From: Pseudomonas bubulae
Lineage (GTDB): Bacteria; Pseudomonadota; Gammaproteobacteria; Pseudomonadales; Pseudomonadaceae
Length of the DNA: 64,000 nucleotides
Assembly (NCBI RefSeq): GCF_037023725.1
Contig: NZ_CP146077.1
Coordinates: 4,994,501-5,058,500 of the forward strand
Reading direction: 5' to 3'
Positions 2,874 to 52,071 of this stretch are shown here, in pieces. The first letter of the stretch is position 1, and each line of letters opens with the position of its first letter. Below the pieces are notes generated by a model. That model had not been told where the DNA came from, ran no database searches, and was given only the letters and a program-made list of their open reading frames with translations. The translations under genes and the position numbers were made by a program.

Positions 2874-3998
2874 TTACAGGTCGCCGAAAAAACGCTTTAC
2901 GCCTTCGAACCAGCCAGTGGCGTTCGGCGAGTGACTGCTGTCACCTTCCAGCGTGGTGCGGAACTCTTCCATCAGCTCACGCTGGCGGCGGCTCAGCTTG
3001 ACCGGGGTTTCGATCACCACACGGCACATCAAGTCGCCAGCACCGCCACCCCGCACAGGGGCCACACCCTTGCCACGCAAACGGAACTGCTTGCCGCTTT
3101 GTGTGCCTTCCGGGATTTTCAGCTTGACCCGACCATCCAGTGTCGGCACTTCAATTTCAGCACCCAGCGCAGCGTCGGCAAAGTTGATTGGCACTTCACA
3201 GAACAGATGCTTGCCGTCGCGCTGGAAAATCGCGTGCTCGCGCACATCGATCACCACATACAGGTCACCCGTAGGCCCACCCTGCACGCCCGCCTCGCCT
3301 TCGCCCGACAGACGAATGCGGTCACCGGTATCAACACCAGCCGGCACTTTCACAGAAAGGGTTTTGTATTCTTCTACGCGGCCTTCACCACGGCAGCTCT
3401 CGCACGGATCAGAAATCACCTTGCCTTGACCGTGGCAGCGCGGGCAAGTCTGCTGAACCGCGAAGAAACCCTGCTGCATGCGCACCTGACCAATACCGCC
3501 ACAGGTGGTACAGGTCACAGGCGAAGAACCTTTCTTGGCGCCCGAACCGTCACATGGTTTGCAATTGACCAGTGTAGGAACGCGGATATTGACCGTAGTA
3601 CCGCGTACGGCTTCTTCCAGATCCAGCTCCAGCGTGTAGCGCAAATCGCTACCGCGCTGAGCGCCACCCCGGGAGCCGCCACGACCACCGCCAAAGAAGT
3701 CGCTGAACACATCACCGAAAATATCGGAGAAGTTCTGACCGCCGAAACCTGCACCGCCGCCGCCCATTTGTGGATCAACACCGGCATGACCGTATTGATC
3801 GTAAGCAGCACGTTTACTGGAGTCCGACAGAACCTCGTAAGCCTCGTTGGCCTCTTTGAACAATTCTTCCGAAGCCTTGTCATCCGGATTACGGTCCGGG
3901 TGATGCTTCATCGCCAGGCGACGATAAGCCTTTTTCAGCTCTATCTCGGTCGAGGTGCGTTCAACACCCAAAATTTCGTAATAGTCGCGCTTTGCCAT
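2874..3998 (-). CDS. dnaJ: chaperone DnaJ (Hsp40)
   Basis: A 374-residue J-protein that stimulates the DnaK ATPase and delivers unfolded substrates. It has the N-terminal J domain with the HPD motif ([10 protein letters not shown]), a Gly/Phe-rich linker, four CxxCxGxG zinc repeats ([32 protein letters not shown]) and the C-terminal beta domains. The start at 3998 ([10 protein letters not shown]) is preferred to a start 6 codons upstream because it matches the family N-terminus. It follows dnaK by 320 bases. Confidence 0.97.
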
Positions 3999-4318
3999 AA
4001 TTCTTTGCACTCTCAAGGACGTTCGACAAAACCCTCCCGAGCCTCGCCAAACCCGCCAAGCCCGAAAAGGATCAGACCCGACTCACGTCTTTTCAACGAT
4101 ATAGGTTTGTGTTTAACAGCCAATGCATTGGCCGCCAGGAGCGGTTACTTCAGGCCGGAAAACAGAAAAGATCCAGACCAAACCGCCAGCATTCGACTTT
4201 GTCGCATGCTGTAAAAATTTCGGTACTCCAGACACGCCAACGCGGGAGCAAGCTCCCGCGCGGCGACATCCTACCAGTCACCGCGCAAGCGCGGTCAACC
4301 GGGCGACAAACAAGCTGA
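3999..4318. other. dnaK-dnaJ intergenic region with two hairpins
   Basis: No gene is visible. A perfect palindrome CGCGGGAGCAAGCTCCCGCG at 4241-4260 resembles a solitary Pseudomonas REP core, and ACCGCGC-AA-GCGCGGT at 4280-4295 forms a second hairpin just after the dnaK stop. Neither is followed by a convincing T run, so they are more likely mRNA-stabilising or processing structures than full terminators. I see no sigma-32 promoter here. Confidence 0.5.
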
Positions 4319-22644: not shown

Positions 22645-22715
22645 CGGTATTCCACATGGTATTCCAAGCCCTACAGTGGTAATTTTTGGAATACCGAATG
22701 ATGTCGTGGAATACC
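22645..22715. repeat. integrase arm-type repeats (GGTATTCC) at the left end
   Basis: GGTATTCC occurs at 22646 and 22658 (12 bases apart) and as the inverse GGAATACC at 22688 and 22708. The last copy ends two bases before the integrase start codon, so the integrase could repress itself by binding. The direct pair, in almost identical 26-base context, recurs at the right end. Confidence 0.7.
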
Positions 22716-22717
22716 CC

Positions 22718-23989
22718 ATGTGTGCCCAAGCCACCCGCCTCTCTGATCGCCAACTCAAGGCTGTAAAGCCAAAAGACAAAGATTACGTTCTCAGCGATGG
22801 GGATGGATTGCAATTACGAGTGAGAATCAATGGCTCTACGCTGTGGAATTTCAACTACCGACATCCGGTGACCAAGAACCGTATCAACATGGGACTCGGC
22901 ACCTATCCAGAGCTCTCTCTCGCACAAGCGAGGAAGAAAACGGTCGAAGCTAGAGAACTTCTCGCCCAGGGCATCGACCCGAAGGAACAACGTAGCGCGC
23001 TGGAGCAGACAAAAAGGCAGGCAACCGAGCACACATTCGAGAACGTGGCGTCTGCCTGGTTTGAACTGAAAACGGATTCTGTGACTCAAGCTTATGCCGA
23101 GGACATCTGGCGCTCGCTCACACTGCATGTCTTTCCATCGCTGGGAACAACACCTATCTCGCAGATCAATGCCCCGATAGTCATCGAGCTGCTGCGCCCT
23201 TTGGAAACCAAAGGCAGCCTGGAGACAGTGAAGCGACTGACCCAACGACTGAACGAGATCATGACCTACGGCGTGAACTCGGGAATGATCTTTGCCAATC
23301 CGCTCAGCGGCATCCGGGCCGTTTTCAAAAAGCCGAAAAAGCAGAACATGGCAGCCCTCCGTCCTGAAGAACTGCCAGAACTGATGGTGGCCATCGCCAA
23401 TGCGAGCATAAAAAGAACAACGCGCTGCCTGATCGAATGGCAACTTCACACCATGACCCGCCCTGCGGAAGCCGCAACGACGTCCTGGGCTGACATCGAC
23501 CTCGACAAGAAAATCTGGACGATCCCAGCGGAGCGCATGAAGAAGCGACGCGCTCACGTAATACCGCTGACCGAACACGCACTTGCTTTGCTTGAGACGA
23601 TCAAACCCTATAGCGGTCACCGAGATTATGTGTTCCCTGCTGATCGAGACCCGCGAACCCACTGCAACAGCCAGACGGCAAATATGGCCCTGAAACGCAT
23701 GGGCTTTGAAGGTCGATTGGTGAGCCATGGAATGCGCTCCATGGCCAGTACCATCCTGAACGAAAAAGGGTGGGATTCGGAGCTGATTGAAGTCGCTCTT
23801 GCGCACGTGGACAAAGACGAGGTACGTAGCGCCTACAATCGCGCGAATTACATTGAGAGAAGACGCCCCATGATGGTCTGGTGGAGTGAACACATCCAAC
23901 AAGCCGCCACTGGAAGCTTGTCAGTTTCAGCCATTCAGGGACGCAGAGTATCCGTCCGGGCAACACACCTTCCTGACGCCGTTGCTTGA
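22718..23989 (+). CDS. int: P4-type tyrosine recombinase (integrase)
   Basis: A 423-residue site-specific recombinase. The N-terminal arm-binding domain (DUF4102-like: LSDRQLKAVKPKDKDYVLSDGDGLQLRV) is followed by a SAM-like core-binding domain and the catalytic domain with TRPAEA (first Arg), HGMRSMASTILNE (His-x-x-Arg) and a C-terminal Tyr region HVDKDEVRSAYNRANYIERR. ATG at 22718 is chosen because it matches the start of P4-type integrases; the open frame upstream runs through the arm repeats. Its position directly after ssrA fits tmRNA-targeting integrases. Confidence 0.95.
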   Translation: MCAQATRLSDRQLKAVKPKDKDYVLSDGDGLQLRVRINGSTLWNFNYRHPVTKNRINMGLGTYPELSLAQARKKTVEARELLAQGIDPKEQRSALEQTKRQATEHTFENVASAWFELKTDSVTQAYAEDIWRSLTLHVFPSLGTTPISQINAPIVIELLRPLETKGSLETVKRLTQRLNEIMTYGVNSGMIFANPLSGIRAVFKKPKKQNMAALRPEELPELMVAIANASIKRTTRCLIEWQLHTMTRPAEAATTSWADIDLDKKIWTIPAERMKKRRAHVIPLTEHALALLETIKPYSGHRDYVFPADRDPRTHCNSQTANMALKRMGFEGRLVSHGMRSMASTILNEKGWDSELIEVALAHVDKDEVRSAYNRANYIERRRPMMVWWSEHIQQAATGSLSVSAIQGRRVSVRATHLPDAVA

Positions 23990-48898: not shown

Positions 48899-49120
48899 TT
48901 ACGCAGCCTTTAGCGGAGACACCGCAGTGAGAGACTCGTGTGCATCACGAGCCTCGATCCTGGCCATGACCCACCCCATAACCTCGCTTTCAACCCATCC
49001 AACAGCCCTGTCACCCAATGATACTGGCTTCGGAAAGCTCCCCTCGCCGATGTACTTGTAGATAGTGGACCGGCCCAGGCCGGTGCAGTCGATAACCTCT
49101 TTCAGACGGATGATCCTCAT
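48899..49120 (-). CDS. alpA: AlpA-family DNA-binding protein
   Basis: A 73-residue MerR-like winged helix: MRIIRLKEVIDCTGLGRSTIYKYIGEGSFPKPVSLGDRAVGWVESEV is the AlpA pattern. AlpA proteins act as excisionase-like activators of P4-type integrase modules. The start at 49120 follows GGAGACAG-like purines and matches the family; five extra codons upstream are unlikely. It is the island's best candidate for controlling excision. Confidence 0.9.
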   Translation of the reverse strand: MRIIRLKEVIDCTGLGRSTIYKYIGEGSFPKPVSLGDRAVGWVESEVMGWVMARIEARDAHESLTAVSPLKAA

Positions 49121-49772
49121 GAACTGTCTCCTCATATTCGTTCAGAGGATTCGCAAGGTCTGTAAATAAATACTCACCACGCCTACTGCTTAACTCTGAC
49201 CGCCCAGGCTTCGCAGAAAACCCCATCAGAACGGCATAGCCTGAGCCGCTCAGTTGAAGAGTTATTAGCCTAAAATTCGACCGACGCCACTCAGCTCAGA
49301 ATCAACTGCGTCAAGCGGAGACGCAAGCCTAGGGAGCTTTGCCAATATCTTGGGCAAGATATTGGCGACAAATCAATTCGACCTGCACAGAGCGCTAATC
49401 ACCTCTGCACGCGCCCGACTTCGGCCACCACCTTTGCCACACGCCAAAGACTCGAAGCAGTCTCGGTCAGTCGTTCGAAAAAACCACGCACACTGTGCGC
49501 CCCACGCTTCGACGAATTTACGAGCGCAGCCTATTAGTAGCATGCGCTGACAACCTCGCCGCCACTCGATATCAGCACCCACGAGCCCGATTCTTACTAA
49601 TAGGCTTAACGCCATATGCACCAACGTATCCAGGAACGCGATAAAAACGTTACTGACGCCCCGCCTCAAAACCCATATCGATTTACACAGTGAAAGCATT
49701 AAGTACGGCAAAAAACCAACCATATATGGCTACAGAGCCCAGCTTTACTGGCTATCATGAGAAATATTAATC
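49121..49772. other. gene-poor region upstream of AlpA
   Basis: A perfect inverted repeat GCCAATATCTTG-GG-CAAGATATTGGC lies at 49341-49366 and may be a regulator site. A minus-strand frame at 49373-49723 and a plus-strand frame at 49350-49550 have no Shine-Dalgarno or family likeness and are not called. Composition turns strongly AT-rich towards 49740. Confidence 0.45.
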
Positions 49773-50853: not shown

Positions 50854-50879
50854 TGGTATTCCAAATGGTATTCCAAGCC
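50854..50879 (+). repeat. right-end integrase arm repeats
   Basis: GGTATTCC at 50855 and 50867, again 12 bases apart, inside a 26-base string that differs from the left-end copy (22645-22670) at only two positions. The pairing of arm repeats at both ends supports this as the inner side of attR. Confidence 0.75.
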
Positions 50880-50927
50880 AATTCAATAACCAATATACTA
50901 TTTTAAAATCAATAAGTTAGACAAACA

Positions 50928-50949
50928 GTTCAAATTACCCCGGCCCACC
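50928..50949 (+). other. attR core (degenerate tmRNA 3' end copy)
   Basis: GTTCAAATTACCCCGGCCCA followed by CC aligns with the tmRNA 3' end GTTCAAATCCCCCCGGCTCC followed by ACC, differing by two substitutions and a one-base gap. It lies 50 bases outside the right arm repeats. Confidence 0.6.
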
Positions 50950-50992
50950 TAATAGCTGTCCAGACCTGTCCCAGACAGTCTGAGCAACACCT

Positions 50993-51022
50993 CAAGAAGC
51001 CCGCCCCGTGCGGGCGTTCTTG
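50993..51022 (+). terminator. probable original ssrA terminator, displaced by the island
   Basis: CAAGAAGCCCGCCCC-GTGCGGGCGTTCTTG forms a long stem (one bulge-like mismatch) followed by TTTC. It stands 44 bases after the attR core, where a tmRNA terminator would be in an empty chromosome. Its origin is inferred. Confidence 0.6.
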
Positions 51023-51107
51023 TTTCTGGCTATCCGCCACTGCCTGCCCATTCTTGTACCACGCCCGAAACCACCAGAAACACTCCGCACGGTTGCGCTT
51101 TTCAAAG

Positions 51108-51359
51108 GGTGGCGTTACCTTTTTACTGTCGCTGCAAATTCAGCGACTGGGTTTAGCGGCCCGGTGAACAATAGGCGCACAGGCGCCACCATAACGATTG
51201 CAGGCGCTTTTTTTGTGTCCGCATATCTGTATTATGGCGGCTGTGCGTGGGAGGCCTTCGGGCCTGCCGGGTTCCTATTGTCCCGGTCCGCTAACCTGCG
51301 CACAGCTGCCACCCTCTTTCGTTTAGCGGCGATTCGTGGCAGCTCCTCAACAATAGGAG
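51108..51359 (+). ncRNA. structured leader RNA with A-B-A complementary elements (P4-immunity-like)
   Basis: The parts in order are: hairpin GTCGCTG/CAGCGAC (51128-51147); element A ACAATAGG (51168-51175); terminator GCGCC...GGCGC plus seven T (51183-51214); a 12-bp stem (51236-51247 with 51299-51310, one G-U) enclosing a UUCG hairpin (51252-51265) and a CCGGG/CCCGG hairpin (51267-51286) whose 10-base loop holds element B CCTATTGT (51274-51281); an alternative stem AGCTGCCAC/GTGGCAGCT (51304-51312 with 51336-51344); and a second A copy, ACAATAGGAG (51350-51359), which is the Shine-Dalgarno of the next ORF. B is complementary to both A copies. GTTTAGCGGC also occurs twice (51151, 51321). A long open frame across this region is not a supported protein. 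Confidence 0.65.
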
Positions 51360-51368
51360 TTACGCCAA

Positions 51369-51500
51369 ATGAATCACACCCGCAATCCGTCCAAAATTCG
51401 CGCCGCGGCTTATCGAGCCATGGCCCTCGTCGCATTACACGCCGACTCCAGCCTTGTCACCCGCCACAACTCCCTCGTGACCAAAAGAGGCGACCTATGA
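51369..51500 (+). CDS. 43-aa protein upstream of the DUF3077 gene
   Basis: An ATG 9 bases after AGGAG opens MNHTRNPSKIRAAAYRAMAL and ends in GDL at 51500; its stop overlaps the DUF3077 start (ATGA). The product is small, basic and alanine-rich. The Shine-Dalgarno is part of the second ACAATAGG element of the structured leader, so its translation would be blocked when that element pairs with CCTATTGT. Function unknown. Confidence 0.6.
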   Translation: MNHTRNPSKIRAAAYRAMALVALHADSSLVTRHNSLVTKRGDL

Positions 51501-51781
51501 CCTCTCCAGCCATGATCCAGACCGTCGGCGGCGCCACCTTCGCCAAATGCAACGTAGGCGACCAGCGTCTATTTACCGTCAATGCCGGTATTTCAGGCGA
51601 AGAAGCACTGCAGCACGCCTCTCTCATTATGAACTGCATCAACACGCTCACGTTTCTCGGTGCAATGGATGATGGCAACGAAGCAATGAGGTGGGCTTCA
51701 CACTATCTCAGCGAAATGGCCAAAGCACTTGTCGATGATGTCACCCTGGGGCTTCAACAGGTTCAGGACGGTGGTCTATGA
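51497..51781 (+). CDS. DUF3077 protein
   Basis: A 94-residue protein starting MTSPAMIQTVGGATFAKCNV. The pattern F-x-VNAGISGEEALQHASLIMNC and MRWASHYLSEMAKALVDD fits the DUF3077 family of small pseudomonad proteins. It is translationally coupled to the 43-aa ORF by a four-base overlap and sits behind the structured RNA leader, so it is the probable regulated output. No function is known. Confidence 0.78.
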   Translation: MTSPAMIQTVGGATFAKCNVGDQRLFTVNAGISGEEALQHASLIMNCINTLTFLGAMDDGNEAMRWASHYLSEMAKALVDDVTLGLQQVQDGGL

Positions 51782-51885
51782 CCTCAAAAAGCCTCTGTTC
51801 ACGGTGATCAAACGGCCAATACACCTTTCGAACTTCGAGTTAAGGGCTATCGCGTGCACTTAAAAATAGGCGGACACCATCGACC

Positions 51886-52071
51886 TTAATTTGTGAGTTC
51901 GGAAGGTGTGCTGGTCGTTCCCTTCGATGCGCTCTGGGACACGCCAGCTTTAACCCTGGCCTCGGCCGCAGCCAATAGCTTCACTTCGGTAGTGGGTACC
52001 ACCTTGCCAGCTTTCATTTGACGTACCGAAGCCAACAAGTCTTTTTGAAAATTCTCCATTTCATGATCCAT
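51886..52071 (-). pseudogene. possible remnant of an XRE-type antitoxin (NadS-like N-terminus)
   Basis: A 61-codon frame with a Shine-Dalgarno (AAGG) reads MDHEMENFQKDLLASVRQMKAGKVV then VKAGVSQSA before running into low-complexity SKGTTSTPSELTN. The first part resembles the N-terminus of NadS/HigA-like regulators, where VSQSAFA begins the helix-turn-helix; here the frame loses likeness exactly there. I read it as truncated or frameshifted. It may alternatively be an intact small protein. Confidence 0.4.

Follow-up and report, generated by a model that had tools for sequence, protein, structure and literature searches.

The RNAs of the C4 family are cut by RNase P from the leader of a transcript, which gives an RNA of about 77 nt. 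In phages P1 and P7 the small ORF at the controlled start is icd. C4 as an RNA family and its role in P1, P7, and P4 are known (PMC2864571, PMC5320573, PMC12197685, PMC4825925), and the P1/P7 C4 is reported to be processed with RNase P (PMC5320573). The CI RNA of P4 acts at seqA and seqC, and in the IsrK-STnc1160-orf45-anrP region of the Salmonella prophage Gifsy-1 a short ORF is coupled to the next gene (PMC4825925). Multiple copies of C4 have been described in Acinetobacter baumannii (PMC5320573, PMC12197685).

The locus studied here lies in a window, the whole 64-kb stretch of Pseudomonas DNA that was analysed. It is probably a C4 autoregulatory leader that descends from a P4-like Pseudomonas satellite, namely from its immunity region, and now silences a DUF3077 gene. 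With the C4 of P1 and P7 (RF01695, icd-ant) it shares the RNA fold, the pairing of a'/b' with a1b1 and a2b2, and a small ORF that begins at the controlled start and precedes the regulated gene. It differs in that DUF3077 and not an antirepressor appears to be regulated, that its genome has 13 such units, and that it lies outside the neighbouring island. With the CI RNA of P4 (seqA/seqB/seqC) it has in common the A-B-A order, the attenuation logic, and a satellite relative, phiAH14b, but the window has no downstream replication operon, and the start site (a2/b2) is likely to be blocked too. The IsrK region of Gifsy-1 (RF01394) resembles it in having a leader with a terminator, an RNA that has been compared with CI, and a short ORF coupled to the regulated gene, but that gene, anrP, encodes an antirepressor. 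The Group 1 sRNAs of A. baumannii are likewise many C4-like RNAs per genome with varying a' regions, but the available text of their description (PMC5320573) makes no link to cis target pairs or to DUF3077 or DUF6124.

The C4-DUF3077/DUF6124 cassettes appear to be new, while the C4 family and its phage role are not. Neither the link between C4 and these two protein families nor the genus-wide set of C4 RNAs is reported in the literature searched, in which few subscription papers were covered; DUF3077 is named there in a single paper and DUF6124 in none. DUF3077 and DUF6124 would gain a regulatory setting, the slot of the antirepressor behind a phage immunity RNA.

The C4 RNA and its target elements

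The unit occupies 51.1-51.8 kb on the plus strand, in the order leader hairpin, a1/b1, antiterminator/terminator, C4, a2/b2, 43-aa ORF, and DUF3077 (Table 1). A simple consensus scan of 50900-51900 found no sigma-70 promoter.

Table 1. Features of the C4 unit and the adjacent island end, in window coordinates
Feature	Position	Strand	Basis or remark
Possible promoter hexamers TTGCGC-16-TTACCT (51093-51098 and 51115-51120)	51093-51120	+	By eye only
Leader hairpin GTCGCTG-CAAATT-CAGCGAC	51128-51147	+	5' part of the isrK and c4-a1b1 matches
a1 target element	51152-51159	+	Complementary to a'
b1 target element	51168-51175	+	8-mer match to b' loop; covariation
Antiterminator hairpin GGCGC-ACAG-GCGCC	51174-51187	+	5' arm overlaps end of b1; 26 leaders; folding
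Intrinsic terminator GCGCC...GGCGC-T7	51183-51214	+	Leader model match; aligned leaders; folding
C4 antisense RNA (predicted)	51230-51316	+	RF01695 match; fold z
b' loop of C4	51274-51281	+	Covariation
a' segment of C4	51288-51295	+	Covariation
a2 target element	51322-51329	+	Covariation with a'
b2 target element (51350-51357), into ribosome-binding AGGAG	51350-51359	+	Covariation with b'
43-aa leader ORF	51369-51500	+	ORF1-family similarity, residues 3-32
DUF3077 protein, 94 aa	51497-51781	+	PF11275, E 6e-21
15-bp repeat of 22656-22670, probable attR of ssrA island	50865-50879	+	Beside tmRNA gene

Positions 51230-51316 match the Rfam model of C4 (RF01695) with 87.7 bits, well over the cut-off of 45. 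The leader matches isrK (RF01394) with 52.1 bits (cut-off 50) and c4-a1b1 with 47.3 bits (cut-off 46.7). As is characteristic of C4, a'/b' is complementary both to the upstream a1/b1 and to a2/b2 at the start site. The predicted fold has a minimum free energy of -51.2 kcal/mol (z -5.3), and none of 200 shuffles was as good; within its three-way junction, one hairpin presents the complement of b1 in a loop of 10 nt. Judged by model matches and predicted fold, the element is a C4 antisense RNA behind an isrK/c4-a1b1-type leader. The family is thus one already known in Rfam, an identity that the initial annotation of this DNA did not have.

The octamer ACAATAGG occupies 51168-51175 and 51350-51357, with its complement in 51274-51281, and these three are the only exact matches, complement included, on both strands of the 64 kb. 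The 8-mer alone is weak evidence, since at least three matches occurred in 10 of 100 shuffles. The two-part pattern TTTAGCGG-N5..25-ACAATAGG occurs exactly twice in the 64 kb (51152-51175 and 51322-51357), and 100 shuffles never produced it.

Covariation was assessed in 26 leaders of the same layout (24 distinct rows), from the window, phiAH14b, and units of several Pseudomonas genomes. They were chosen by layout (mostly an 87-nt C4 plus a terminator) from 169 assembled units, plus the loci L183 and L184, and are not a random sample because they were picked in this way from sequences already seen. They were aligned with MAFFT, which does not use pairing. For C4 with a1/b1, 97.8% of 1008 cells are paired, and two-sided changes affect 25 of 42 pairs (120 cells); for C4 with a2/b2 the values are 99.2% and 25 of 42 pairs (124 cells), stems being included in both sets. 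Considered alone, the a1 helix has 97.0% of its cells paired and two-sided changes in six of seven tested pairs, the b1 helix 91.7% and five of eight, the a2 helix 100% and six of seven tested, and the b2 helix 96.4% and five of eight. A single pair shows up to five standard pair types in b1 and up to four in b2. The observed covariation was reached by none of 500 shuffles on any of five measures, a test that is inflated by the relatedness of the leaders. A slide control keeps that relatedness, and moving the partner by 1-3 columns left 35-43% paired. Covariation is uninformative on the hairpin carrying b', because its pairs never vary (five of five invariant).

These results confirm most of the initial annotation. 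The octamer copies that it placed at 51168 and 51350, with their complement in a 10-nt hairpin loop, are where it put them. Its three-way junction is also present, although the closing stem, which it called a perfect 12-bp one, has 17 pairs in the Rfam alignment and is not perfectly Watson-Crick because the outer 12 pairs include a G-U. The second copy, said to contain the Shine-Dalgarno sequence, overlaps AGGAG (51355-51359) ahead of the ATG at 51369. A second pairing element, a1/a'/a2, accompanies b1/b'/b2 and had gone unmentioned. Absence of covariation had been named as the outcome that would speak against the annotation; two-sided changes were found in the stem as well as in the antisense/target match. 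Its P4-like A-B-A logic is supported at the sequence level by a C4 with both target sites and by this covariation.

Predicted attenuation and translational control

The antiterminator and the terminator share an arm. GGCGC at 51174-51178 and GGCGC at 51203-51207, the 3' arm of the terminator that is followed by T7, are both complementary to GCGCC at 51183-51187. This competition had been proposed before, and its arms are present and conserved in the aligned leaders: GGCGC is found in 25 of 26, and the other has GGCAC with a compensating GTGCC replacing GCGCC. b1 and the antiterminator GGCGC overlap by two bases, at the 3' end of the former and the 5' end of the latter. A simple scan lacked the terminator because its loop limit was 8.

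When the RNA is folded up to 51195, the antiterminator pairs have a probability of 0.95-1.0. Blocking a1/b1 in this RNA reduces the outer two pairs to 0 and leaves the inner three at 0.82-0.83. In the complete leader the terminator has a probability of 0.85 when a1/b1 is free and 1.00 when it is blocked. Since the terminator already reaches 0.85 in the free state and the inner pairs persist, equilibrium folding alone would be a modest switch. Attenuation by C4 would fit the modelled folding if the choice is made during transcription. Among 136 C4 units from ten genomes (see below), a script found a terminator in 20, six of them on the reverse complement, so attenuation does not appear to be general among C4 units.

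From this arrangement we infer transcription, processing, repression, coupling, and an inducing condition. One transcript would carry a1/b1, the terminator, C4, a2/b2, the leader ORF, and DUF3077. C4 would be excised from it, RNase P being the enzyme known for P1/P7, and would pair with a1/b1 of the next nascent transcript. Because the 5' arm of the antiterminator begins within b1, this pairing would leave GCGCC to the terminator and transcription would stop. On transcripts that read through, C4 would bind a2/b2 and cover the Shine-Dalgarno sequence of the leader ORF. DUF3077 would stay off as well, since its translation would be coupled to that ORF. DUF3077 would be made only when C4 is short, either because the element enters a cell without that specificity or because C4 is titrated.

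The short terminated leader could instead be an active regulator of the isrK kind, which turns translation on by binding, in trans, to C4 or to the long mRNA. The leader does score above the isrK cut-off (52.1 against 50 bits), and IsrK has been called a structural homolog of P4 SeqA (PMC4825925). However, the reported mechanism of IsrK is pairing with the 3' part of orf45, and the match may only mirror the common a1/terminator layout, so that such a role appears unlikely here.

Satellite relatives and the DUF3077 gene

The closest relative of the leader is in a satellite. An ORF1 relative matches phiAH14b (KU708005) weakly (E 0.2), which is how the phage was found, and directly 5' of that match the phage has a C4 of 89 bits. 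Its leader, terminator, start region, and small ORF are nearly those of the window, with compensated letters in a1/a'/a2 and b1/b'/b2, and for these reasons a satellite origin of the unit is well supported. AH14a and AH14b are described as a helper-satellite system analogous to P2-P4 in a paper whose main text lacks the word 'antisense' (PMC4936722). Integrase, AlpA, and replication genes are all annotated in phiAH14b. In KU708005.1 (L176) a hypothetical protein is annotated across C4 at 3605-4087, and the ORF behind the C4-controlled start begins at 3929.

Other units have similar surroundings. One (L174) lies behind tRNA-Leu with a related integrase and AlpA, another (L183) behind tRNA-Thr with integrase and AlpA, and two more behind tRNA-Thr (L175) or tRNA-Met (L184), each with an integrase. 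ARAGORN, applied to 10 kb or less on each side, placed a tRNA gene near the DUF3077 locus in six of nine loci of named genomes, and in a seventh the tRNA is cut by the contig end; these tRNA counts have no control.

The earlier suggestion that this is an older satellite's immunity region agrees with the phiAH14b leader, terminator, and ORF and with these tRNA, integrase, and AlpA contexts. The unit had also been placed outside the attR of the island, and it does lie beyond the 15-bp repeats at 22656 and 50865, which are the probable ends of the ssrA island. Finally, continued control of DUF3077 is favoured, as far as sequence can speak to it, by the ATGA overlap, the low dN/dS, and the linkage to C4 in the genus, all described below.

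The ssrA island (22.65-50.87 kb) carries a phiAH14b-like integrase near 22739, AlpA at 48899-49135, a YagK/YfjJ protein, and a gene that, by its sequence only, resembles a type I restriction methylase. On the minus strand at 51886-52071 there is a 61-aa ORF with no Pfam match; its first half presumably resembles a HigA/NadS-type antitoxin, and it may be a truncated remnant.

Viral contigs show which genes follow C4. An IMG/VR search with one degenerate pattern, modelled on satellite-type C4, gave 21 contigs with that pattern, some of which may include host flanks. ORF1 is 3' of C4 in seven (six with a Bro-N relative), DUF3077 in 13, and neither in one. The Bro-N query protein matches Pfam Bro-N and PHROG antirepressors. 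DUF3077 thus holds the place that the antirepressor has in other C4 operons, as it follows C4 in contigs. The gene at this place in the window is DUF3077 and not a Bro-N/Ant antirepressor, and the locus is therefore not a C4-icd-ant operon of the P1/P7 kind.

Residues 3-32 of the 43-aa ORF belong to the ORF1 family, which is found after C4 in satellites and antirepressor operons, and the tail differs. Identity is 80% over 30 aa with the 52-aa ORF1 of genome G034 (residues 3-32) and 67% over 27 aa with ORF1 of phiAH14b (residues 6-32). The leader ORF is shorter than its relatives of 52-53 aa, and ORF2, which lies between ORF1 and DUF3077 in G034 and G003, is absent in the window, so the unit could be decaying. 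The start of DUF3077 overlaps the stop of the leader ORF (ATGA). The dN/dS of DUF3077 is 0.07-0.15 in the six of seven homolog comparisons that were computable, and these ratios are rough because synonymous sites are saturated, with dS above 1 in all six.

A search of 50,697 phage records at E 0.01 gave no hit for the DUF3077 protein, although two PHROG families match it. Among solved structures there was nothing convincing (best E 0.0056, over 21 residues of chain 4hb1_A). PADLOC has no family for the leader ORF or DUF3077, and NCBIfam has none for five proteins of such C4 units. DUF3077 and DUF6124 are related to each other (hhalign probability 98.2). The motif M-x-K-x-x-P-[ND]-P-P stands directly after the C4-controlled start in 31 of 67 distinct DUF6124 proteins and seven of 25 DUF3077 proteins; the proteins with this N-terminus otherwise diverge, and some of the start sites, which were extracted by script, are guessed.

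C4 units in Pseudomonas and their pairing codes

C4 units are numerous in the genus. The genome of the window has 13 C4 RNAs over the cut-off, including the one described here. In 59 Pseudomonas genomes, where no more than 61 candidates per genome were scored, with stricter filters, and all counts are lower bounds, C4 over the cut-off is present in at least 53 and a match at E <= 0.001 in at least 54. There are at least 999 matches, with a median of at least 14 and a maximum of at least 54 per genome; at least 37 genomes have ten or more, and none was found in five. C4 is rare elsewhere, occurring in six of 184 other genomes of a class sample and, outside the genus, in 12 of 93 genomes of an order sample, with one to six copies. 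In another class sample, DUF3077 had no match in the 142 other genomes. A genus in which one antisense switch reaches at least 54 copies offers a natural experiment in antisense specificity.

DUF3077 and DUF6124 genes are closely linked to C4. Ten genomes with few contigs and with a C4 list short enough to be displayed in full were selected from the 59; they have 136 C4 matches (three below the cut-off) and 106 distinct DUF3077/DUF6124 genes. For 88 of these genes a C4 lies within 1 kb upstream on the same strand, where 0.18 would be expected by chance, and 18 have none. Conversely, a DUF3077/DUF6124 gene lies downstream of 89 of the 136 C4s (89 of the 133 over the cut-off). Downstream genes were also classified with models that were built in this analysis and contain some of the classified sequences. 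By this measure 95 of the 136 units have DUF3077/DUF6124 (three with ORF1), 17 have LLID, 11 have a Bro-N relative, two have ORF1 only, and 11 have nothing recognised, with no match on the reverse strand. LLID is the label given here to a group of mostly 89-107 aa proteins for which no relation to DUF3077 or DUF6124 was found.

Some C4 units lack an intact recognisable gene, namely 1083005 and 1301355 in the genome of the window and 336368, 327492, and 1515541 in G018. Unit 1083005 keeps only the 3' end of a gene, and 1301355 has nothing recognisable. Such units suggest birth and death of C4 units.

Most C4 RNAs fit their own targets best. A two-part ungapped code score was used, for which a' and b' match, in order, the sites upstream and downstream. 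RNAduplex energies of the b' loop against all leaders had shown a clear mean difference (0 of 5000 permutations) and were replaced for poor ranking, the own site being best within the genome in 41 of 135 units upstream and 56 of 135 downstream; the likely cause is that the GG..CC flanking the loop pairs with much else. The mean code score is 71.6 for own sites and 50.2 (sd 5.5) for those of others, and the sum of 9740 compares with at most 7047 in 5000 permutations. Of the 136 units, 108 score strictly higher on their own sites than on those of any other unit, and within the genome 122 of 135 do so (four by a margin of 2 or less). The same holds where a' is common to a group of at least four units, in which 73 of 87 score strictly highest on their own site. 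In the genome of the window 12 of 13 C4s fit their own targets best, four of them by 2 or less (400738, 1301355, 312184, 737974), and the exception is 1083005, which has lost most of its gene. The C4 of the window scores 77.5 on its own targets and 38.5-53.0 on those of the other 12 units. Unit 400738 has the same b' octamer and scores 66.5 on the window sites and 68.5 on its own, so that cross-talk between the two is possible.

The codes differ even between close paralogs. Paralogs of at least 80% protein identity within a genome gave 29 rows, or 27 pairs after two tandem-C4 rows were dropped; these pairs are not independent, because they come from few clusters (14 from G018, nine from G034). 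None of the 27 shares the whole b' loop, and some loops are similar. One pair has 99% protein identity and 96% scaffold identity, yet CCTTTGA in one and CCTATAA in the other. Identical a' and b' codes form 13 groups among 169 units, of which 11 span different genomes or records and two stay within a single genome. Within genomes there was no avoidance of cross-talk beyond chance (713 of 2000 label permutations were as low), and non-cognate pairs scoring 65 or more number 27 of 2742 within and 171 of 15618 between genomes.

These codes bear on whether C4 acts mainly in trans to give immunity against incoming satellites or prophages that share its specificity, with control of DUF3077 being secondary. 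This is the role of C4 and CI reported for P1, P7, and P4 (PMC5320573, PMC4825925), and ORF1 or DUF3077 follows C4 in phiAH14b and in 20 of the 21 viral contigs. However, the whole a' and b' code of the window is in no other of the 169 units, a comparison that leaves the viral contigs outside, its b' octamer is common to just five of the 169 (the window included), and DUF3077 is linked to C4 in the genus; a mainly trans role is accordingly improbable. That the satellite has decayed and left a leader and a DUF3077 gene without effect is less probable still, because the shortened leader ORF, the missing ORF2, and the gene-less units 1083005 and 1301355 are outweighed by two intact target pairs, a C4 that fits its own targets (77.5 against 38.5-53.0), a low dN/dS, and a preserved ATGA overlap.

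Autoregulation of DUF3077 by its own C4 is thus the preferred reading of the locus. For the genus, a tentative and rather doubtful extension is that Pseudomonas holds a repertoire of self-silenced C4 cassettes whose private codes change faster than their proteins, serving as a heteroimmunity library or as addiction modules. There would then be up to tens of cassettes per genome, most with a private three-way code and many with a single gene. A heteroimmunity library would be directed at C4-bearing satellites and prophages. Addiction modules would be mutually independent antisense units, with DUF3077/DUF6124 as the released regulator or toxin. As most C4s are best matched to their own targets, what the C4-silenced genes do becomes a testable question.

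Unit 400738 (400738-401140), a DUF3077 unit, lies between genes that we take to be gshA and argA. In nine other genomes the 5 kb on either side of argA hold no C4, and the other neighbour of the unit is near argA in one of the nine, which precludes an empty-site comparison. In a synteny test the SnoaL neighbour had no match in the 18 other members of the genus searched. G018 has four tandem C4 pairs (193206/193621, 5594293/5594796, 5635367/5635673, and 1612756/1613768), and in two of them both C4s stand before one DUF gene.
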